Assembly: GCA_017461425.1 (NCBI GenBank)
Contig: JAFTXY010000011.1
Span: 186,001 to 250,000 of the forward strand
DNA: 64,000 bases
DNA from: Candidatus Gastranaerophilales bacterium
GTDB lineage: Bacteria; Cyanobacteriota; Vampirovibrionia; Gastranaerophilales; Gastranaerophilaceae
Direction: 5' to 3'
Position numbers and translations under genes: made by a program. Shown in pieces: positions 42,381 through 52,938 of the stretch. How positions within the stretch are numbered: the first letter of the stretch is position 1; every line of letters starts with the position of its first letter. The notes under the pieces were generated by a model that was given only the letters and a program-made list of their open reading frames with translations, ran no database searches and had not been told where the DNA came from.

Positions 42381-43103
42381 ATGAAAAAACAATTTATAGG
42401 AAAAATAAATTTAATAGAAAAAGTTTCAATAGATGCATATAAAATGGAAATTTTTTCTGAATTAGAAGAAGCATATCCTGGGCAATTTATTTCAATTTTA
42501 TGTCCAACACAAACCCTAAGACGTCCTTTTAGTATTGCTGGTTTTGATAAAGAAAAACAGCTTACAACAATCATATTTAAACTAAAAGGAGATGGAACAA
42601 ATTATCTAAAAGATTTAAAAATTGGTGATGAAATAAATTTTTTAGCGCCTCTGGGTAACACTTTTGAAATTGAAAATAAAAACTGTTTGTTAGTAGGGGC
42701 AGGCATTGGAATTGCTCCAATGTTATTTTTGAAAAAAGAATTAGATAAGAAAAATATCAAAAATTACCTTGTGTCTGGCTTTAAATCAGATGATGAAGTA
42801 ATTTCTGGAAGTGATGAAAATGTTGTTGGCGGAAGTGTTTTAGATAATTTAGAACAAATTATAAAAGATAAAAAAATAGAAATAGTTTATTCTTGTGGGC
42901 CTCAAATTGTTTTAAAGAAAATTAGCGAAATTTGCTTGTCTTGTGATATAGAATCTCAAATAGCGATGGAAAAGGTTATGGCATGTTCAATTGGAGTATG
43001 CAGGGGTTGTGTTATAAGACTGGCAAAAGAAAATGAAGTTGTTTATGCTTCTGTTTGCAAGGATGGTCCAGTATTTAAAGGAAGCGAGATTGTATGGGAA
43101 TAG
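42381..43103 (+). CDS. pyrK: Dihydroorotate dehydrogenase electron-transfer subunit
   Basis: PyrK passes electrons from the PyrD FMN to NAD via FAD and a 2Fe-2S cluster. The FAD motif is LRRPFSIAGF, the nucleotide-binding motif is LLVGAGIGIAPM, and the cluster cysteines lie in MACSIGVCRGCVI and YASVCKDGP. Length 240 is normal. It is the first full gene of the UMP operon and overlaps pyrD by ten bases. Confidence 0.95.
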   Translation: MKKQFIGKINLIEKVSIDAYKMEIFSELEEAYPGQFISILCPTQTLRRPFSIAGFDKEKQLTTIIFKLKGDGTNYLKDLKIGDEINFLAPLGNTFEIENKNCLLVGAGIGIAPMLFLKKELDKKNIKNYLVSGFKSDDEVISGSDENVVGGSVLDNLEQIIKDKKIEIVYSCGPQIVLKKISEICLSCDIESQIAMEKVMACSIGVCRGCVIRLAKENEVVYASVCKDGPVFKGSEIVWE

Positions 43104-44038
43104 AAAATTTAAAAACAATCTTAAAAAATGAAAGAAATGATATTTCTTTTGAAATCAAAACTCCTATAATCTCTGCAAGCGGAACATATGGCTATAATAC
43201 AGAATTTGCTGATTTTATTGATTTAAATTGTTTTGGTGCGATATCAACAAAAGGAATAACTTTGGAAAAACGTCCTGGTAATTCTGGAGATAGAATTTTT
43301 GAAGTTCAAAACGGTATGATAAATAGAATTGGACTTGAAAATGTCGGCATAGATAATTTTATAAAAGAAAAATTACCTGTTTTAAGAGAAAAAAATATTG
43401 ATTTTCTTTTAAATATTGCTGGTTCAACAATGGAAGATTATGAAAAACTGGCAACTATTGCAAACGATAATGGCATAAAAGCGCTCGAGGTGAATGTATC
43501 TTGTCCAAATGTTAAATCAGGATGTTTAGAATTTGGTTTAAATCCGACAAGTTTATTTGAATTAGTTAAAAAAATAAGAAGAAGTTATAATGGCTTTTTA
43601 ATTGTTAAACTATCCCCTAATACAAGCGATATAAAACCTCTTGCAACCGCAGTACAAAGCGCTGGAGCAGATTGCATTAGTGCAATAAATACTCTAAGAG
43701 GTTTGGGTGTAAAAATAGATTTTGCAGGAAACAAATTTATTAAAAAATCAGTTCAAGGTGGATTATCTGGTACTTGCATAAAACCTGTTGCATTATTTAT
43801 GGTAAATCAAATTAAACAAGTTGTTGATATTCCAATAATAGCGATGGGTGGAATATCAAAATTATCAGATTTATTTGAATTTATTGCAGTCGGAGCTGAT
43901 GCTTTTCAAATTGGAACGATGAATTTTATTGATCCTGGAATTTGTACTAATTTAGCTTTAGAATTAAGCAAATTTATGGATGAAAATGGATTTAAAAATT
44001 TTGATGAATTAAAAGGAGCAATTAGAAATGACCAATAA
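43094..44038 (+). CDS. pyrD: Dihydroorotate dehydrogenase, class 1B
   Basis: This enzyme oxidises dihydroorotate to orotate. The catalytic Cys lies in LEVNVSCPNVKSG; FMN contacts lie in IAMGGISKLSDLFEF and IVKLSPNTSD. The adjacent pyrK confirms class 1B (NAD-linked, cytosolic heterotetramer). Length 314 is normal. It overlaps both neighbours by about ten bases, so translation is coupled. Confidence 0.96.
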   Translation: MGIENLKTILKNERNDISFEIKTPIISASGTYGYNTEFADFIDLNCFGAISTKGITLEKRPGNSGDRIFEVQNGMINRIGLENVGIDNFIKEKLPVLREKNIDFLLNIAGSTMEDYEKLATIANDNGIKALEVNVSCPNVKSGCLEFGLNPTSLFELVKKIRRSYNGFLIVKLSPNTSDIKPLATAVQSAGADCISAINTLRGLGVKIDFAGNKFIKKSVQGGLSGTCIKPVALFMVNQIKQVVDIPIIAMGGISKLSDLFEFIAVGADAFQIGTMNFIDPGICTNLALELSKFMDENGFKNFDELKGAIRNDQ

Positions 44039-44606
44039 TGTTGATATAAAAGAACTTTTATCTAGTGCGGGCGGTTTATTATCGGGGCATTTTTGTTTAA
44101 CGTCTGGTTTGCATTCGGATACATATTTTCAATGTGCAAAATTATATCAATATCCTGATGTTGTTGAAAAATTAGCGAAAGAATTGGCAAAAAAGCTTGA
44201 AAATATTGAATTTGATACAATAGTTGCTCCTGCGATTGGGGCTGTTATATTTGGATATGAAGTAGCAAAACAATCCAAAAAAAGAAATCTTTTTGTTGAA
44301 AGAAAAGATGGCGAAATGCAATTAAGACGTGGCTATACTTTAGCTAAAGGCGAAAAAGTTGTAATTATTGAAGATGTTATCACAACAGCAAGAACAATTT
44401 TTGAAACAAAAGAAGCTATAAAAGAATTCGGATGTGAAGTTGTTGGGGTTGGATGTATTGTTGATAGAACTCAAGGAAAATTAGAGAATGAATTCAAAAT
44501 TTATTCACTTTTGCAATCTTCCCCTGTAACTTATGAGCCAGATAATTGCCCATTATGCAAGCAAGGAATTGAATTAGTAAAACCTGGTAGCAGAGGTGGA
44601 AAATAG
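44028..44606 (+). CDS. pyrE: Orotate phosphoribosyltransferase
   Basis: PyrE joins orotate to PRPP to make OMP. The PRPP loop is KVVIIEDVITTART, and the Lys/Arg-rich loop RKDGEMQLRRGY is present. The C-terminal extension with DNCPLCKQGIELVKPGSR is seen in the longer bacterial PyrE subfamily. It overlaps pyrD by 11 bases and its stop abuts the pyrB start. Confidence 0.96.
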   Translation: MTNNVDIKELLSSAGGLLSGHFCLTSGLHSDTYFQCAKLYQYPDVVEKLAKELAKKLENIEFDTIVAPAIGAVIFGYEVAKQSKKRNLFVERKDGEMQLRRGYTLAKGEKVVIIEDVITTARTIFETKEAIKEFGCEVVGVGCIVDRTQGKLENEFKIYSLLQSSPVTYEPDNCPLCKQGIELVKPGSRGGK

Positions 44607-45497
44607 ATGAAACATCTTATAAATATTGAGGATTTGACGGTAGAGGAAATAAATAAAATTTATTTTAGAGCTAATGAATTTGAAAAAGGCATTAGAAAAT
44701 CTAATCATATTAATGCGCATTGTGTAAATATGTTTTTTGAAAATTCAACAAGAACAAAGTTGTCATTTGAAATGGCCCAAAATAAATTGCATATCAATAA
44801 GTACGATTTTAATGCAGATACTTCATCTTTAAATAAAGGTGAAGATTTATACGACACAATAAATAATTTATCTGCAATTGGTATGAATATTATTGTAATG
44901 CGTCATAGTGATAATAATTTAATAAAAGAATTATCTTCTAAAACATATTTTCAAGAAGTTTTGTTTATTAATGCTGGTTCTGGTTCTAATTCTCATCCAA
45001 CACAAGCATTATTAGATTTTTATACAATGAAAAAACATTTTTTAGATTTATCGCAAAAAACAATAACTATTGTTGGAGATATTGCACACTCAAGAGTTGC
45101 GCATTCAAATATTGCTTTGCTGAAAAAATATGGAATGAAAATCAGATGCTTGGCTCCTGAATATTTTATTGGAGAAAAAATTGATGGCGTTGAATATTTT
45201 ACAAATTTAAAAGAAGCATTTGAAAATGCTGATGTAATTATGGCATTGAGAATCCAAAAAGAAAGAATTCAAGAACACATAGACTTTGATGATTATATTA
45301 AAAATTATCAAATTACTAAAGAAAATCTTCCTTATGGAGCTTATTTAATGCATCCAGGTCCAATAAATAAGGATGTTGAAATAAAAGCTGATGTTTTGGA
45401 AACGCAAAATGCGAGAACAATTTTAACTCAAGCTCGAAATGGAGTTTATGTTAGAATGGCTATAATGGATATGATGCTTGCAAGCTGGGGTTTATAG
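44607..45497 (+). CDS. pyrB: Aspartate carbamoyltransferase catalytic chain
   Basis: PyrB makes carbamoyl aspartate. The carbamoyl-phosphate motif FFENSTRTKLSFEMA, the SHPTQALLDF segment and the MHPGPINKDVEI loop are intact. At 296 residues it is a standard catalytic chain. No regulatory pyrI is present, so feedback by nucleotides would have to act elsewhere, for example at carB or by attenuation. Confidence 0.96.
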   Translation: MKHLINIEDLTVEEINKIYFRANEFEKGIRKSNHINAHCVNMFFENSTRTKLSFEMAQNKLHINKYDFNADTSSLNKGEDLYDTINNLSAIGMNIIVMRHSDNNLIKELSSKTYFQEVLFINAGSGSNSHPTQALLDFYTMKKHFLDLSQKTITIVGDIAHSRVAHSNIALLKKYGMKIRCLAPEYFIGEKIDGVEYFTNLKEAFENADVIMALRIQKERIQEHIDFDDYIKNYQITKENLPYGAYLMHPGPINKDVEIKADVLETQNARTILTQARNGVYVRMAIMDMMLASWGL

Positions 45498-46490
45498 ATG
45501 AAAAAAGATTTTGAAGTAATTCAAATACCTTCTTTAATAGATATGCATGTGCATTTTAGGGAGCCTGGTTTTGAATATAAAGAAACAATTCAAACAGGCA
45601 TCCAATCAGCTATTGCTGGCGGATTTTCTGGTGTTTGCACAATGCCAAATACAAATCCTGTTACAGACAATTCAAAAGTAATTAAAGAAATTTTGTCTAA
45701 AGCTAAAAAATATCATTTTGAAATTTATCCCGTTGCTGCAATTACAAAAAATCTAGATAGTTTAGAACTTGTTGATTTTAAAGAATTAAAAAAAGCTGGT
45801 GCAGTTGCTTTTTCAAATGATGGATTACCTTTATTGGATAAAGATGTTTTTTTAGAAGCATTAAAAAGTGAAGAATTAATTTTATCACATTGCGAAAATG
45901 AAACAACAGAAGTTGAATGGCAAATAGAGCAATTAAAAAAAGCGCATGAATTAGGATATGATGCAAAACTTCATTTTTGTCATATTTCAAAAAAAGAAAG
46001 TATAGATTTAATTAGAAAAGCTAAAGCACAAAAAGTTAAAAATCTTACTTGTGAAACTGCTCCACATTATTTTACTTTTACAAGAGATGATATTGATACA
46101 ACAGGAACATTTAAAATGAATCCGCCATTGGGTTCAGAAATCGATAAAAGAGCAGTCATGGGTGGTTTAATTGATGGAACAATTGATGTTGTTGCAACAG
46201 ATCATGCACCACATAGTGATGATGAAAAACTAAAACCATATCTAGAAGCGCCAAATGGAATAACAGGATTAGAAACAGCATTTTCATTAACGTATGAACT
46301 TTTAGGATTAGAAAAAACATTAGAAAAAATGGCGTATAATCCAAGAAAAATTTTAAAAATAAATAATAAAAAAATGATTAAAGTTGCACTTGATGAAACT
46401 TGGGTCGTTTCGCCAAAACAATTTAAATCAAAATGCAAAATATCACCATATAAAGGAATGCAATTAAAAGGAAGAATAATTAATGGATAA
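45498..46490 (+). CDS. pyrC: Compact class I dihydroorotase
   Basis: Dihydroorotase closes the ring of carbamoyl aspartate. Metal ligands are intact: HVHFREPG, the Asp of AFSNDG, HCE, CHIS and ATDHAPHS. The protein is only 330 residues against about 420-430 for class I enzymes. The usual N-terminal 45-50 residues of the beta-sandwich are missing (HxH appears at residues 17-19), and a loop after HCE is shortened. The C-terminal strand region is kept. It likely remains active, perhaps needing PyrB contact as in Aquifex; that is an inference. Confidence 0.9.
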   Translation: MKKDFEVIQIPSLIDMHVHFREPGFEYKETIQTGIQSAIAGGFSGVCTMPNTNPVTDNSKVIKEILSKAKKYHFEIYPVAAITKNLDSLELVDFKELKKAGAVAFSNDGLPLLDKDVFLEALKSEELILSHCENETTEVEWQIEQLKKAHELGYDAKLHFCHISKKESIDLIRKAKAQKVKNLTCETAPHYFTFTRDDIDTTGTFKMNPPLGSEIDKRAVMGGLIDGTIDVVATDHAPHSDDEKLKPYLEAPNGITGLETAFSLTYELLGLEKTLEKMAYNPRKILKINNKKMIKVALDETWVVSPKQFKSKCKISPYKGMQLKGRIING

Positions 46491-47214
46491 TAATGAAATC
46501 AGAGAAAAGCTTGTACTAGCGCTTGATGTAGAAGATATAAATGAAGCAAAACAGCTCGTTAACGATTTAAGTCCTTATATTGGAACTTTTAAGGTTGGTC
46601 TGCAGTTATTCTGTGGGTATGGTTTAGAAATAGTAAATTACATTAAAGAAAAAAATTCTAACTTCTTCTTGGATGTAAAGTTTCATGATATTCCAAATAC
46701 GGTTGAAAAAGCTTCTTATAATGTGATTAAAAATGGGGCTAATTTCTTTAATGTTCATGCGACAGGCGGAATTGAAATGATGAAAGCTGCTAAAAAAGGA
46801 GCGATGGATGCAGCTTTAAAATATGACAGAAAGAAACCATTAATCCTTGCGGTTACAGTTTTAACAAGTATTAGCCAAGAAGTTTTAGAAAATGAATTAT
46901 CAAATAAAAAAACAGTTGAGGAATTTGTTATTCAATTGGCAAAAAACGCAAAAGAAGCAGGATTAGATGGTGTTGTTGCTTCTGCTCGTGAATTAAAAGC
47001 AATTAAAAAAGCTTTGGGTGATGATTTTGTTGTCTTAACTCCAGGTATAAGACCAAAATGGAGCTTAAAAGACGACCAACAAAGAATTGCAACTCCAACA
47101 TCTGCTCTTAATGATGGGGCTGATTACATAGTTTTAGGAAGAGCTGTGACAAGTGCTTCTGATAGAATTGAAGCAATAGAAAAGATTTATCAAGAAATTA
47201 AAGAGGGAATATAA
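46483..47214 (+). CDS. pyrF: Orotidine-5'-phosphate decarboxylase
   Basis: PyrF makes UMP, the last step. The catalytic Lys/Asp array is in FFLDVKFHDIPNTVEKA and the phosphate loop in VLTPGIRP and VLGRAVTSA. Length 243 is normal for the short family. It overlaps pyrC by eight bases and abuts carA. Confidence 0.97.
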   Translation: MDNNEIREKLVLALDVEDINEAKQLVNDLSPYIGTFKVGLQLFCGYGLEIVNYIKEKNSNFFLDVKFHDIPNTVEKASYNVIKNGANFFNVHATGGIEMMKAAKKGAMDAALKYDRKKPLILAVTVLTSISQEVLENELSNKKTVEEFVIQLAKNAKEAGLDGVVASARELKAIKKALGDDFVVLTPGIRPKWSLKDDQQRIATPTSALNDGADYIVLGRAVTSASDRIEAIEKIYQEIKEGI

Positions 47215-48321
47215 ATGGGAACATTGATATTACAAGATGGCACCGTATATAAAGGACAAAGCTTCGGAGCCTTGGGAGGATTTGAGGGCGAAGTTGTTTT
47301 TAATACTTCAATGGTAGGCTATCAAGAAATTCTTAGCGATCCAAATTATGCAAAACAAATTTTGGTTATGACATATCCAGAAATTGGAAATTATGGAGTA
47401 AATGATTTCGATTTTGAATCAGATAATACACATTTAGTTGGTTTAATTGTTAAAAATAATTGTCAACAAGAAAGCCATTACAAATCAAGAGAGTCATTAT
47501 CAAATTTCTTAAAAAAGAAAAATATCATTGCCCTAAGTAATATTGATACAAGAAGTTTAGTTAAAAAACTTACTCAAATGGGAACAATGAGTGGTTTTAT
47601 AACATCAAATGACCTTGATAGTGAATATATAAATGAAAAACTTGGCGAATTACAAAGTTTTAAAATAAAAGAAGATATTTTGGCTGAAGTTAGTTGCAAA
47701 TCTAGATTTGCATATAACCCACAAGGTAAAATAAATATTGCAATATATGATTATGGTATTAAAAAAGGAATTTTAAATGCTTTAGCATTAAGAAATTGCA
47801 GAATAACAGTTTATCCATACAATACGGAAGCAAAAGAAATATTAGAAAATGATTTTGATGCTGTATTTTTATCAAATGGACCTGGAAATCCTGCAAATTA
47901 TACTTATCAAATTGCTCAAATTAAGCAGTTAATGGGTAAAATACCGTTGTTTGGCATAGGATTGGGCTGCCAATTATTAGCATTGGCATCCGGCGCTAAA
48001 ACATATAAATTAAAATATGGACATAGGGGCTCAAATCATCCTGTTATTAATCTTGAAAATAATAAAGTAGTTATGACTGCGCAAAACCATGGTTATGCAA
48101 TAGATTTAGAAAATATAACAAAATTTATGCGCCCTACTCATAAAAATTTAAACGACGATACACTAGAGGGTTTTGAAATAACAAGTCTTGGTGTTTATGC
48201 AATTCAATTCCAGCCTGAAGGTAAACCAGGTCCAAATGATGCAGAGTTTATTTTTGATGAATGGGTAAATATTATAAAAAAAGATATCAATAGAATTAAC
48301 GAGGTAAAAAATGAAAGATAG
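47215..48321 (+). CDS. carA: Carbamoyl-phosphate synthase small chain, glutaminase residues lost
   Basis: CarA normally hydrolyses glutamine and passes ammonia to CarB. The N-terminal domain and the class I amidotransferase fold are complete (368 residues; FLSNGPGNPANY, KYGHRGSNHPV, TAQNHGYAID). The nucleophile elbow, usually G-I-C-L-G-H-Q, reads GIGLGCQ: Gly249 replaces the catalytic Cys and Cys252 the His. The catalytic His of the H-P-E motif is Gln333 (FQPEGKPGP), while Glu335 remains. Glutaminase activity should be absent, so the holoenzyme may use free ammonia or keep CarA for structure. It overlaps carB by 11 bases. Confidence 0.93.
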   Translation: MGTLILQDGTVYKGQSFGALGGFEGEVVFNTSMVGYQEILSDPNYAKQILVMTYPEIGNYGVNDFDFESDNTHLVGLIVKNNCQQESHYKSRESLSNFLKKKNIIALSNIDTRSLVKKLTQMGTMSGFITSNDLDSEYINEKLGELQSFKIKEDILAEVSCKSRFAYNPQGKINIAIYDYGIKKGILNALALRNCRITVYPYNTEAKEILENDFDAVFLSNGPGNPANYTYQIAQIKQLMGKIPLFGIGLGCQLLALASGAKTYKLKYGHRGSNHPVINLENNKVVMTAQNHGYAIDLENITKFMRPTHKNLNDDTLEGFEITSLGVYAIQFQPEGKPGPNDAEFIFDEWVNIIKKDINRINEVKNER

Positions 48322-51300
48322 AACGCTTAAAAAAATTCTTGTGATTGGTTCAGGACCAATCGTAATTGGACAAGCGGCAGAGTTTGATTATGCGGGAGTT
48401 CAGGCATGCAGAGCCTTAAAAGAAGAAAATATTGAAATTGTTCTTGTTAATTCTAATCCTGCAACAATAATGACTGACGAGGAAATAGCAAATAAAGTAT
48501 ATATCGAGCCATTAAATCTCGAAAGTTTAACTGAAATTATTAAAAAAGAACGTCCTCAAGGTTTAATTGCATCATTAGGCGGACAAACCGCATTAAATCT
48601 TGCTTGTGAATTATTTGAAGCAGGTGTTTTAGATAAATACAAAGTTAAACTTTTAGGAACAAATATTGATTCAATTAAAAAAGCAGAAGATAGAGAAATG
48701 TTTAAAAATCTTATGCAAGAAATTGGTGAACCTGTGCCTGAAAGTGAAATTGTTTCAAGTTATAATGAGGCAAGCGAATTTGCAAAAAGAATTGGTTTTC
48801 CTATAATTATTAGACCTGCTTTCACATTGGGTGGCGCAGGAGGCGGTATTGCTAGAAATGAAAGAGATTATGAGGAAATAGTTCATCAAGGTTTATCTCA
48901 ATCTCCAATTAACCAAGTTTTAGTTGAAAAATCTATTGCTGGTTATAAAGAAATAGAATTTGAAGTTATTAGAGATTCAAATGATACTTGTATAACAATT
49001 TGTTCTATGGAAAACATTGACCCAATTGGTATCCACACAGGGGACAGTTTTGTTGTTGCGCCAAGTCAAACATTAACTGCAAACGAAGCAGGAATGTTAA
49101 GAGCTAGTGCAATAAGAATAATTAAAGCACTAAAAATTGAGGGTGGGTGTAATGTTCAATTTGCGCTAGATACCGTTACAAATCAATATTATATAATTGA
49201 AGTTAATCCAAGAGTTTCTCGTTCTTCTGCTTTAGCTTCTAAAGCGACTGGTTATCCTATTGCAAAAATTACAACAAAAATTGCAATTGGATATAATTTG
49301 AATGAAATTAAAAATCCAATAACTGGTAAAACTGCTGCGTTTGAACCTACTATTGATTATATTGTTACAAAAATTCCTAAATGGCCTTTTGATAAATTTT
49401 CAACTGGAGATAGAATTCTTGGAACAAAAATGAAAGCTACTGGCGAAATTATGGCTATTGGAAGAACATTTGTTTCTTCATTTAAAAAAGCTATAACATC
49501 TTTAGAAGATAGATATACTGGGCTTTTGTGGCGTGGTTTTCAAGAAATGTCTAATGAGGAATTGTTAACTGAGCTTTATATACAAGATGACAGAAGAATT
49601 TTCCGTTTAGCTCAAGCTTTGTATAATGGTAATGAAATTAATAAATTATGTGCTATTACAAAAATTGATAAATGGTTTATTTCAAAAATCAAAGAAATTG
49701 TTGATTTGGAAAGAGAGTTATCAACAACAAAACAACTTGATAAAAAACTTTATCAAAAAGCAAAAGAATACGGCTTTTTAGATGATGAAGTTATGCATTT
49801 GACTCAAAATACAATAGAAACATTGAAAAACTTTAATGTTCAACCGGGTTTCAGATTGGTTGATACTTGTGCAAATGAATTTAGCGCTTCAACACCATAT
49901 TTTTATTCAGCATATGCAGAAGCAGATGAAGTTGAAGATTATAAAATCAAAAGCCAAGAATCCTATAAAAAACCAAAAGAAAACATTCTTGTATTAGGTT
50001 CTGGGCCAATCAGAATTGGTCAAGGTATTGAGTTTGATTATTGTTCAGTTCATGCATCTCAAGAGCTTATAAAGCGTGGATATGAATCTGTTATGGTTAA
50101 TTCAAATCCAGAAACATTATCAACGGATTTCGATATTGCTACAAGATTATATTTTGAACCAATGAATATCGAATATATAATGAATATCATTAGAAAAGAA
50201 AATCCAAAAGGTGTTTTGGTTCAATTTGGCGGACAAACAGCAATTAATTTAGCTGAAAAACTTGATCAAGAAGGAATAAAAATCTTAGGTACGAGTTTAG
50301 AAAGCATTAATGCTGTTGAAGATAGAAAAGTTTTTGAAAAATTGTTGAAAGAACTAAATATCTCGCAACCTAAAGGATGTGCAGTAACTTCTACTCCTCA
50401 AGCGTTGAATGCTGTTAAAGAACTTGGATATCCTGTTTTAGTTCGTCCAAGTTATGTTATCGGTGGTCGTGGCATGCAGGTTGTTTATAATGATGAAGAG
50501 CTTTTAACATATATTACAGAAGCCTTTAAATTCTCTAATGAACATCCTGTGCTTATTGATCAATATCTTGAGGGGCAAGAAGTTGAATTAGATGCGATTT
50601 CTGACGGTAGAGATATTTTAATTCCTGGAATATGTGAACATATAGAGCGTGCTGGAGTTCATTCAGGCGATTCTATGAGTATTTACCCAAGTCAAAATAT
50701 TTCAAGAAAAAATGAAAAAATATTAGTTAAATACGCAACAAAAATTGCTAGAAAATTAAATATTAAAGGTTTAATGAATATTCAATTTATCATCAAAGAT
50801 GATAAAGTTTATGTAATTGAAGTTAATCCAAGAGCATCTCGTACAGTGCCTATTATGTCTAAAGTAACAGGTATTCCAATGGTAAAAATTGCACTTAGCG
50901 CAATTTTAGGAAAATCGATTAGACGTGCTGGCTTTGGTGTTGGATTGTATAAAAAATCTAACTTGGTATCTGTCAAAATGCCAATTTTCTCTTGGCAAAA
51001 ATTAAACAGAATTGACCCTGCTTTAGCTCCTGAAATGAAATCAACAGGAGAGGTTTTAGGTATTGATACATCATATAAAAAAGCTTTATATAAAGCATTT
51101 TTAGCTGGTGGACATAAATTCTCTAAAGCAAAACAAAGAGTGTTGGTTTCTTTGAATGATCATAACAAAAAACCGGCTTTACCTGTTATTAAAAAATTAT
51201 TTAAACAAGGATTTTTCATAATGGCAACTTGGGGAACACATAAATTCCTTGAGAAAAATGGAATTCCATCAAAAATGATTGAGAAATTTATGATAGATAA

Positions 51301-51550
51301 GCTTCAAAAACGTATGAAAAATGGACGTTTGAGCTTTATTATTAATACTCCAACAACAGGTAAAAATTCTCAAAATGCAGGTTTTCAAATAAGAACAATT
51401 GCGCAAATGTATGGTATCCCAAGTTTTACATCAATAGATACTGCAAATGCCTTTTTGGTTGCGCATAAAGTATTTGATAAAAATACTGAGTTGACTTATG
51501 ATACTATAACAAATTATCGTAAGAAAAACTTTTTGGAACTATTTAAATAA
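48311..51550 (+). CDS. carB: Carbamoyl-phosphate synthase large chain
   Basis: CarB makes carbamoyl phosphate from bicarbonate, ammonia and two ATP. Two homologous ATP-grasp halves are visible, each starting with an ATP-binding motif (LVIGSGPIVIGQAAEFDY; LVLGSGPIRIGQGIEFDY) and carrying EVNPR strands. The C-terminal 140 residues form the MGS-like allosteric domain (FFIMATWGTHKFL). At 1079 residues it is full length. No catalytic residue loss was seen, in contrast to CarA. It is the last gene of the operon; no terminator was found after it. Confidence 0.97.
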   Translation: MKDRTLKKILVIGSGPIVIGQAAEFDYAGVQACRALKEENIEIVLVNSNPATIMTDEEIANKVYIEPLNLESLTEIIKKERPQGLIASLGGQTALNLACELFEAGVLDKYKVKLLGTNIDSIKKAEDREMFKNLMQEIGEPVPESEIVSSYNEASEFAKRIGFPIIIRPAFTLGGAGGGIARNERDYEEIVHQGLSQSPINQVLVEKSIAGYKEIEFEVIRDSNDTCITICSMENIDPIGIHTGDSFVVAPSQTLTANEAGMLRASAIRIIKALKIEGGCNVQFALDTVTNQYYIIEVNPRVSRSSALASKATGYPIAKITTKIAIGYNLNEIKNPITGKTAAFEPTIDYIVTKIPKWPFDKFSTGDRILGTKMKATGEIMAIGRTFVSSFKKAITSLEDRYTGLLWRGFQEMSNEELLTELYIQDDRRIFRLAQALYNGNEINKLCAITKIDKWFISKIKEIVDLERELSTTKQLDKKLYQKAKEYGFLDDEVMHLTQNTIETLKNFNVQPGFRLVDTCANEFSASTPYFYSAYAEADEVEDYKIKSQESYKKPKENILVLGSGPIRIGQGIEFDYCSVHASQELIKRGYESVMVNSNPETLSTDFDIATRLYFEPMNIEYIMNIIRKENPKGVLVQFGGQTAINLAEKLDQEGIKILGTSLESINAVEDRKVFEKLLKELNISQPKGCAVTSTPQALNAVKELGYPVLVRPSYVIGGRGMQVVYNDEELLTYITEAFKFSNEHPVLIDQYLEGQEVELDAISDGRDILIPGICEHIERAGVHSGDSMSIYPSQNISRKNEKILVKYATKIARKLNIKGLMNIQFIIKDDKVYVIEVNPRASRTVPIMSKVTGIPMVKIALSAILGKSIRRAGFGVGLYKKSNLVSVKMPIFSWQKLNRIDPALAPEMKSTGEVLGIDTSYKKALYKAFLAGGHKFSKAKQRVLVSLNDHNKKPALPVIKKLFKQGFFIMATWGTHKFLEKNGIPSKMIEKFMIDKLQKRMKNGRLSFIINTPTTGKNSQNAGFQIRTIAQMYGIPSFTSIDTANAFLVAHKVFDKNTELTYDTITNYRKKNFLELFK

Positions 51551-51564
51551 AACTATATTTGGGA

Positions 51565-51570
51565 TATATT
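51565..51570 (+). promoter_or_regulatory. -10-like box six bases before the Clp_N gene
   Basis: TATATT, six bases, then ATG at 51577, with no good Shine-Dalgarno. It suggests that the Clp_N gene has its own leaderless message despite following carB closely. Confidence 0.45.
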
Positions 51571-51576
51571 AAGACA

Positions 51577-52938
51577 ATGTTTGAAAAATATACACAAAAA
51601 GCAATAGACGTTGTACAAGCTGCGCAAAATTATGCCTTGCAATTCAATCATGATAAGGTTTTATCACAACATATTTTAATTGGACTTGTGTCACAAAGCA
51701 AAGGTGTGCAAGCGAAATTATTAGGTTTTGATAAAATCAATTTTGGTGAATTGACAATCGAAGTGCATAATAGTTGTGCAATTCACCCTGATAAAAAAAA
51801 TGAAAATATTATTTTTTCATCTGAAGCAAGAAATATTTTGAAAAAAGCAGTGGATTTATCTTCTGAATTAAATTCAAAGTTCGTTTTGCCTCAACATATT
51901 GCTTTAGCTATATTTTTATTAAATGAATATGGTTCATATCAAATTTTAAAGAAGTTTGATATAGACAATGAAAAAATTGCATATAACCTAAAAAGAATTT
52001 TAGACAAAAGTTCGGATATTGAAAATCTTCATCCAGAGATTACAATTGAAAATACACAATTAACTAATATAAATGACTTCTTTAAAGAAAAAATAATTTC
52101 TGATATTTTGTCAAATGCAAAAGCAAAATTATTAACAAAAGGCTATGAAATTGTCGGTAGCGAGCAAATTTTGCAATCCATTTTAGATAATGATGAATAT
52201 AAAATTGTTGAAATTTTGAATAAATATTCAATGAATTCCGAAGTATTTAATGAAAAATTAAATCAAATACCAACAAGAAACGCAGAGTTTGAAAATTCTG
52301 AAAAACAAATAATATTCACTCCAAATGCTTTTAATGCTTTATTATTAGCGCTTGATTATGCAAAAGAATCTGGAAGTGTTGGAATTTTGCCAGAACATGT
52401 CGTTTTGGGAATTTTAAAATCAAAAAAAGGTATTGCATATCAAATTTTATCTTCAACTATACCAAATTTTGTTGATTTTGAAGATATTGTTATGAAAAAA
52501 TTGAATGATAAAATTCCAGAAACTCTTGCAATTCTTAGATTGGCAAAAGAAGAAGCAAGAGCTCTTGATTGTGCCACAATCGGTACAGAGATGATACTTT
52601 TGGGTATTTTGTCATATGGAGCTGGAATTGCATCTGATACGTTAAGACATCTAGGAATTAATTTAAAAGATGCACGTAGCGAAGTTAAAAAGCTTATTAA
52701 GCCTGATAAAGTAGTTGAAACATTATCTTATAGTCCAAGAGCTAAAAAAATCCTTGAAGTTGCATATGAAACCGCAAGAGAGCATAAGCGTTCTAAAATA
52801 AAATCAGAAAATTTATTGTATGGAATTACAAAAATGCCAAACTGTGCCGCAATGCAGGTTTTATCAAATCTTGGAACGGATGTTTTAGAAATTCAACAAG
52901 GTATTAAACAGCAATTGCTTGGCGGTATGGATTTGTAA
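51577..52938 (+). CDS. Protein of three tandem Clp_N domains without AAA+ ATPase
   Basis: Clp_N domains recruit substrates and adaptors to ClpA/ClpC. This 453-residue protein consists of six Clp_N half-repeats (for example FEKYTQKAIDVVQAAQ, SSEARNILKKAVDLS, SPRAKKILEVAYETA, each followed by a PQHI/PEHV/SENL-type helix), so three full Clp_N domains. No Walker motif is present. It could be an adaptor, decoy or phospho-arginine reader that competes with ClpC. ClpS-like or AAA+ partners are not in the window. ATG 51577 is preferred over the TTG at 51559. Confidence 0.8.
   Translation: MFEKYTQKAIDVVQAAQNYALQFNHDKVLSQHILIGLVSQSKGVQAKLLGFDKINFGELTIEVHNSCAIHPDKKNENIIFSSEARNILKKAVDLSSELNSKFVLPQHIALAIFLLNEYGSYQILKKFDIDNEKIAYNLKRILDKSSDIENLHPEITIENTQLTNINDFFKEKIISDILSNAKAKLLTKGYEIVGSEQILQSILDNDEYKIVEILNKYSMNSEVFNEKLNQIPTRNAEFENSEKQIIFTPNAFNALLLALDYAKESGSVGILPEHVVLGILKSKKGIAYQILSSTIPNFVDFEDIVMKKLNDKIPETLAILRLAKEEARALDCATIGTEMILLGILSYGAGIASDTLRHLGINLKDARSEVKKLIKPDKVVETLSYSPRAKKILEVAYETAREHKRSKIKSENLLYGITKMPNCAAMQVLSNLGTDVLEIQQGIKQQLLGGMDL

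Follow-up and report, generated by a model that had tools for sequence, protein, structure and literature searches.

The window analysed in this work is a stretch of 64,000 nucleotides from a Candidatus Gastranaerophilales bacterium (contig JAFTXY010000011.1 of assembly GCA_017461425.1, which is 77.7% complete with 1.45 Mb in 18 contigs). It contains a complete pyrimidine operon in the order PyrD-E-B-C-F-CarA-CarB, in which the small and large subunits of carbamoyl-phosphate synthase (CPSase) are paired and the gene of the former, carA, lies between pyrF and carB. The names pyrD, pyrE, pyrC and pyrF are those that we presume for the corresponding frames. The features are as follows.

43094..44038 (+): pyrD (order common to relatives), presumed name
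44028..44606 (+): pyrE, presumed name
44607..45497 (+): pyrB, aspartate carbamoyltransferase, sole PF00185 match of the window genome (profile search)
45498..46490 (+): pyrC, presumed name
46483..47214 (+): pyrF, presumed name
47215..48321 (+): carA, CPSase small subunit with a putatively dead glutaminase site (Gly249, Gln333, Asn44; open frame, family match and alignment to E. coli CarA)
48311..51550 (+): carB, CPSase large subunit, 1079 aa, complete (frame, profile and column comparison)

The completeness of CarB and of the operon had already been stated in the first-pass annotation and is borne out by these features. Directly 3' of carB, a frame of 459 aa (51559-52938, +) displays a Pfam match to Clp_N (PF02861) only, with no ATPase domain. 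In three other genomes (G039, G047 and G097, belonging to genera g13, g21 and g61), a single open frame of 613-631 aa covers both PyrF and CarA, apparently through gene fusion (L047, L038 and L170). Most carA frames of genus g70, including those of G368, G400 and G409, are similar to these fusions, the likeness being one of length alone.

The carA frame is free of stops and encodes 368 aa. Both PF00988 (CPSase_sm_chain) and PF00117 (class I GATase) are matched above their cut-offs, and TIGR01368, a model named 'glutamine-hydrolyzing carbamoyl-phosphate synthase small subunit', is matched with 440 bits for a cut-off of 307. The protein was aligned to the E. coli CarA chains of the PDB. The nucleophile elbow reads FGIGLGCQ and places Gly249 at chain position 269 (Cys in 1bxr), and the later motif reads QFQPEGKPGP and places Gln333 at position 353 (His353). 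The codons concerned are listed below.

47344..47346 (+): codon 44, AAT, Asn (E. coli Ser47); Ser in 142 of the 142 intact relatives with a letter at this position (column survey)
47959..47961 (+): codon 249, GGA, Gly, at the position of the catalytic Cys (E. coli Cys269; alignment, codon reading)
47968..47970 (+): codon 252, TGC, Cys, three residues past the lost nucleophile; present in 6 of 11 relatives with a damaged triad, the window included, and in 0 of 144 intact ones
48211..48213 (+): codon 333, CAG, Gln, at the position of the catalytic His (E. coli His353; alignment, codon reading)
48217..48219 (+): codon 335, GAA, Glu, third triad residue, retained (alignment, codon reading)

The Cys-His-Glu triad used for glutamine hydrolysis is incomplete in the window CarA, in agreement with the first-pass annotation, which had reported the loss of Cys and His and the retention of Glu335. 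The replacement of Ser44 by Asn is a third active-site change that was absent from its list. E. coli Ser47 and Gln273 (positions 44 and 253 of the window CarA) are taken here to be glutamine contacts and E. coli Pro360 (Pro340) to line the ammonia tunnel. Since the presumed pocket residues Gln253, Asn291 and Gly293 and the PGP loop are all retained, the window CarA looks like an earlier or milder stage of loss than the other proteins described below. The label 'glutamine-hydrolyzing' is probably wrong for this protein because the catalytic Cys and His and the conserved Ser are missing. A second, intact CarA, a possibility raised at first reading, was not seen in the 77.7%-complete assembly.

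In order to place these changes among relatives, CarA was read in 158 genomes drawn from the genus, the family, the order and the class, and the triad was readable in 155 of them (G083, G305 and G121 were unreadable; G119, outside the 155, was found intact on separate reading). Cys, His and Glu are all present in 144 of the 155, and at least one of them is lost in the remaining 11, referred to hereafter as losers. All the losers belong to the window's family, with 11 of 125 readable CarA there and 0 of 30 outside. The 114 intact members, the 11 losers, G119 and two unreadable genomes make up the 128 family genomes with a CarA match. The letters at the Cys, His and Glu positions of the losers are as follows.

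G000 (window): G, Q, E
G017: S, D, E
G011: S, N, E
G015: G, E, Y
G005: G, Y, E
G107: G, T, D
G104 and G133: S, L, E
G400: G, H, D (Cys lost, with Glu to Asp)
G409: G, H, E (Cys only lost)
G368: C, Y, E (His only lost)

None of the 11 losers shows more than one CarA match, and the eight that were scanned all match TIGR01368, a comparison of score and cut-off being made for the window protein. A reading in which loss of Cys always accompanies loss of His (8 of 8 at first) was dropped because the wider survey found the partial losses of G409, G368 and G400. The first-pass annotation had named relatives keeping Cys and His, together with a sequencing error, as grounds for rejecting its claim. Most relatives do keep both residues, but ten other genomes lack at least one triad residue and the claim is not overturned. 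A close relative, the Candidatus Gastranaerophilales genome RGIG1837, comes from goat cecum and has a CarA 73% identical to that of the window. A CarA match at 1e-30 is absent in 255 of 383 family genomes sampled, some of them listed as 99% complete, so that the enzyme seems to be often lost outright in this family.

The residues changing along with the triad were then delimited by column comparison. Sixty-two CarA columns are invariant in 49 intact relatives, and the window breaks exactly three of them (S44N, C249G and H333Q). The other seven losers in the alignment break 7 to 16, and intact genomes left out singly break a median of 0 and a maximum of 5 (G003). Ser44 is changed in 8/11 losers and in 0/142 intact CarA with a letter there, Gln253 in 6/11 and 0/144, and Pro340, which the window CarA keeps, in 7/11 and 1/144; the Fisher p-values for these three counts ignore relatedness. 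Cys252 follows the losers as well, with the exception of G005, G015, G368, G400 and G409, which have no Cys at that position. The intact members of the genus that were read at this position carry a Tyr codon (TAT or TAC), one step from a Cys codon.

The number of separate losses was estimated on trees built with FastTree and a quick IQ-TREE run, from which genomes with cut operons and, for IQ-TREE, seven distant ones were omitted. On the IQ-TREE topology (six operon proteins without CarA, 44 genomes), six changes are required to account for the eight losers, each of them imposed by starred branches, and the grouping of the five losers from the window's genus into one clade fails the AU test (p 0.002). 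FastTree joins G000 with G005 (0.987), which gives five losses for the same eight genomes. The placing of G000, G005 and G015 differs between trees: G005 pairs with the intact G009 under IQ-TREE, and G015 with G000 in the CarA-only tree. Both programs recover G011 and G017 as sisters with the intact G003 beside them, and G107 as sister to the intact G029. In another genus, G368 and the G400/G409 pair appear as two further losses on the CarA-only tree. The operon trees are therefore read as five or six separate losses, and the family as a whole would have undergone seven or eight, although a count of changes on a tree cannot by itself separate loss from gain.

The fate of the remainder of the enzyme was examined at the level of gene content, column conservation and rate. 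The operon check covered the eight losers outside genus g70. In all eight, CarA and CarB are of full length and no other pyr gene within contig reach is missing, the contig of G133 ending in pyrB. The window CarB breaks 2 of 358 invariant columns (K269R and I494V) and the CarB of the eight losers break 0-11; three intact genomes break 9 to 14. A codon-likelihood script of our own was run on CarA, PyrF, PyrC and PyrB. With synonymous sites near saturation, the omega of CarA amounts to 0.050 on loser branches vs 0.041 elsewhere, a rise that is not significant (p 0.16), and omega = 1 is rejected on loser branches with a likelihood-ratio statistic of 876. Amino-acid rates, expressed relative to the pyr genes, were compared between branches leading to losers (10) and intact ones (26), on genomes whose operons are not cut. 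In losers, evolution of the glutaminase half of CarA is about 2.4 times faster (2.04 vs 0.85, p 0.001), the N-terminal half reaches 1.67 vs 1.23 (p 0.03) and CarB 0.75 vs 0.55 (p 0.10). Because the rise in omega is not significant, the claim of relaxation is drawn solely from these amino-acid rates. Taken together, the low omega, the accelerated glutaminase half and the few CarB breaks indicate that the synthase is conserved, that the body of CarA is under purifying selection and that its glutaminase half is partly released. A catalytic Cys lost from a protein kept under selection is expected of an ammonia-dependent CPSase, and it is found in the window CarA.

The use of the product was addressed with the carbamoyltransferase profile PF00185. 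Exactly one match was obtained in 14 of the 17 genomes searched, that of the window genome being PyrB, and no ornithine carbamoyltransferase was seen in these 17 genomes. Carbamoyl phosphate therefore probably serves pyrimidines alone.

Other amidotransferases and the nitrogen supply were surveyed in parallel. Besides CarA, the class I GATase matches of the window genome are CTP synthase (536 aa) and a protein of 203 aa that we take to be HisH-like, both with Cys and His, and the genome as a whole accordingly still uses glutamine. Of this class, the eight losers searched contain, apart from CarA, only CTP synthase, HisH-like proteins and, in G107, a presumed GMP-synthase-like protein; the Cys is kept in six of the HisH-like proteins and in the latter. 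The sequence of CTP synthase was examined in 48 genomes (18 + 30), the losers among them lying outside genus g70, and its Cys and His are kept in 46. The two exceptions are CarA losers of different genera that share C379S and G352V (E. coli numbering):

L207:688-2301 (-): CTP synthase of G107, with C379S and G352V
L210:1495-3096 (+): CTP synthase of G133, with C379S and G352V

In G029, the sister of G107, both CTP synthase and CarA are intact. Since the HisH-like and GMP-synthase-like proteins keep their Cys, only two of the class I enzymes that were read are affected, both of them in pyrimidine synthesis. The E. coli CTP synthase variant G352P is described as making no CTP from glutamine and retaining nearly all of its activity with NH4Cl (PMC9138612). 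The search of loser genomes found no CTP synthase in G015 and G104; G015 is listed as 99% complete, and the absence there may be an assembly gap or a real loss. The class II glutaminase domain PF13522 is present in 5 of 8 losers, probably as GlmS. Glutamine synthetase was found in 32 of 32 genomes searched (genus and near relatives) and an ammonium transporter (PF00909) in a single one, with an intact CarA. Neither the transporter nor a missing glutamine synthetase separates losers from intact genomes, and both were discarded as correlates.

The interpretation that we favor, with a probability of about 0.77, is that CarA is a pseudo-glutaminase kept as the partner of CarB and that carbamoyl phosphate is made from free ammonia. 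Its first element, namely that the glutaminase has been lost with the rest of the CPSase kept, as the first-pass annotation proposed, is strongly supported by the comparisons above: the loss is recurrent, pocket and tunnel residues are lost as well, CarA is under selection and CarB is conserved. According to this scheme, the window CarA, devoid of Cys and His and with a conserved pocket residue changed, would no longer hydrolyze glutamine. It would still fold, as its retained domains suggest, and would remain attached to CarB, where its role would be structural and possibly regulatory. Bicarbonate, 2 ATP and free cytosolic ammonia would then serve CarB as substrates for carbamoyl phosphate. 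In the several relatives where the tunnel-wall proline is lost, the old ammonia tunnel may open to solvent, and the replacement of Pro340 in 7 of the 11 losers points to one route by which ammonia could enter. The supply would come from an ammonia-rich gut, a habitat taken from one relative (RGIG1837).

The use of ammonia is plausible because a CPS1 without the Cys uses only ammonia and because E. coli tunnel variants work with external ammonia: human CPS1, with Ser294 in place of the catalytic Cys, takes ammonia as its only nitrogen donor, and blocking or perforating the tunnel of the E. coli enzyme leaves it active when ammonia is provided externally (PMC4655335). The E. coli enzyme is stated in PMC6245113 to need very high ammonia, a use judged 'likely physiologically irrelevant', and the native enzyme of the losers would therefore need a better Km for ammonia. 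A broader version of the same interpretation can be put forward tentatively, at somewhat less than even odds. The family would have switched repeatedly to free ammonia, with loss of the triad and pocket Ser, entry of solvent ammonia through the dead glutaminase at the opened Pro340 wall, CTP synthase following in some lineages by means of C379S and G352V, and CarA persisting as an obligate pseudoenzyme.

Several other explanations were weighed. The operon could be decaying, with pyrimidines obtained from salvage and CarA as the first gene to go. This is unlikely, even though it would agree with the frequent absence of a CarA match in the family (including the genus member G020, 93% complete and without a match at 1e-30) and with the faster evolution of CarA in losers. 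Decay is opposed by the full-length CarA, CarB and other pyr genes retained in eight losers, by an omega of 0.05 with neutrality rejected, by the concentration of changes on the glutaminase half and by the sharing of a dead form within two pairs of losers, G011/G017 and G104/G133. Delivery of ammonia to a dead CarA in trans, by another glutaminase or deaminase in place of the bulk pool, is judged slightly less probable still; the universal presence of glutamine synthetase in the genomes searched is compatible with such a donor, but no extra class I GATase was found in the eight losers searched.

The first-pass annotation had mentioned Cys252 as a possible relocated nucleophile that would still cleave glutamine. 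The distribution of this residue (6/11 losers, 0/144 intact) fits the suggestion, which is nevertheless judged very improbable: none of the six losers concerned retains the catalytic His (its place is taken by Gln, Asp, Asn, Thr or Leu), five of them have a changed Ser44 and five a changed Gln253, and 5 of the 11 losers have no Cys there. As for an error of sequencing or assembly in one metagenome-assembled genome, the incompleteness of the assembly and the failure to find a second assembly of the window's species in the searches made would allow for it. Three active-site residues are nonetheless changed in frame, and related losses with different letters occur in ten other genomes. A single misread base is excluded by the difference in letters between lineages and by the GGA codon, two steps from any Cys codon. 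The loss of the glutaminase residues is not a sequencing error, and the chance of such an artifact is negligible.

The pseudo-glutaminase reading has its closest precedents in vertebrate CPS1 and in the frog and Alcolapia intermediates. The mitochondrial CPS1 of vertebrates retains a small-subunit region without glutaminase, as the window CPSase probably does, and it uses ammonia. It is however one chain, dependent on N-acetylglutamate and feeding urea, and does not share the loss of both Cys and His. The window CPSase falls outside that family: carA and carB are distinct genes within a pyr operon, and the only PF00185 protein of the genome is PyrB. In bullfrog and Alcolapia CPS, the triad is kept and glutamine-binding residues are lost (PMC7657897). 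E. coli CarAB (TIGR01368) resembles the window enzyme in its two CarA Pfam domains, its full CarB and a score well above the cut-off, and differs from it in possessing the catalytic Cys and His and the conserved Ser. Chain 1c30_B of E. coli CarA carries Ser at position 269 in the PDB alignment; this variant and the tunnel mutants have the glutaminase or tunnel altered likewise, but they are laboratory-made, whereas the changes described here are natural and recurrent. Some bacterial and archaeal NAD synthetases use ammonia only, a form thought to be ancestral and without a glutaminase domain (PMC3376133). In the CarA described here, the glutaminase appears lost with its body kept. No bacterial CarA without the triad was found in the titles and abstract beginnings of the open-access literature, among the matches listed, which is weak evidence of novelty.

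The loss of glutaminase in this bacterial CPSase is real and recurrent, and probably functional. It is hidden by automatic annotation, as the eight losers scanned all match a 'glutamine-hydrolyzing' model. A review gives glutamine as the preferred, physiological donor for the E. coli enzyme, and a family of bacteria that has naturally lost the glutaminase several times would go against this rule. The losers would provide independent staged replicates (His only, Cys only, both, and both with pocket and tunnel) showing how a channelling amidotransferase becomes an ammonia enzyme, and the supply of ammonia in the gut could perhaps be read from genomes by this loss.
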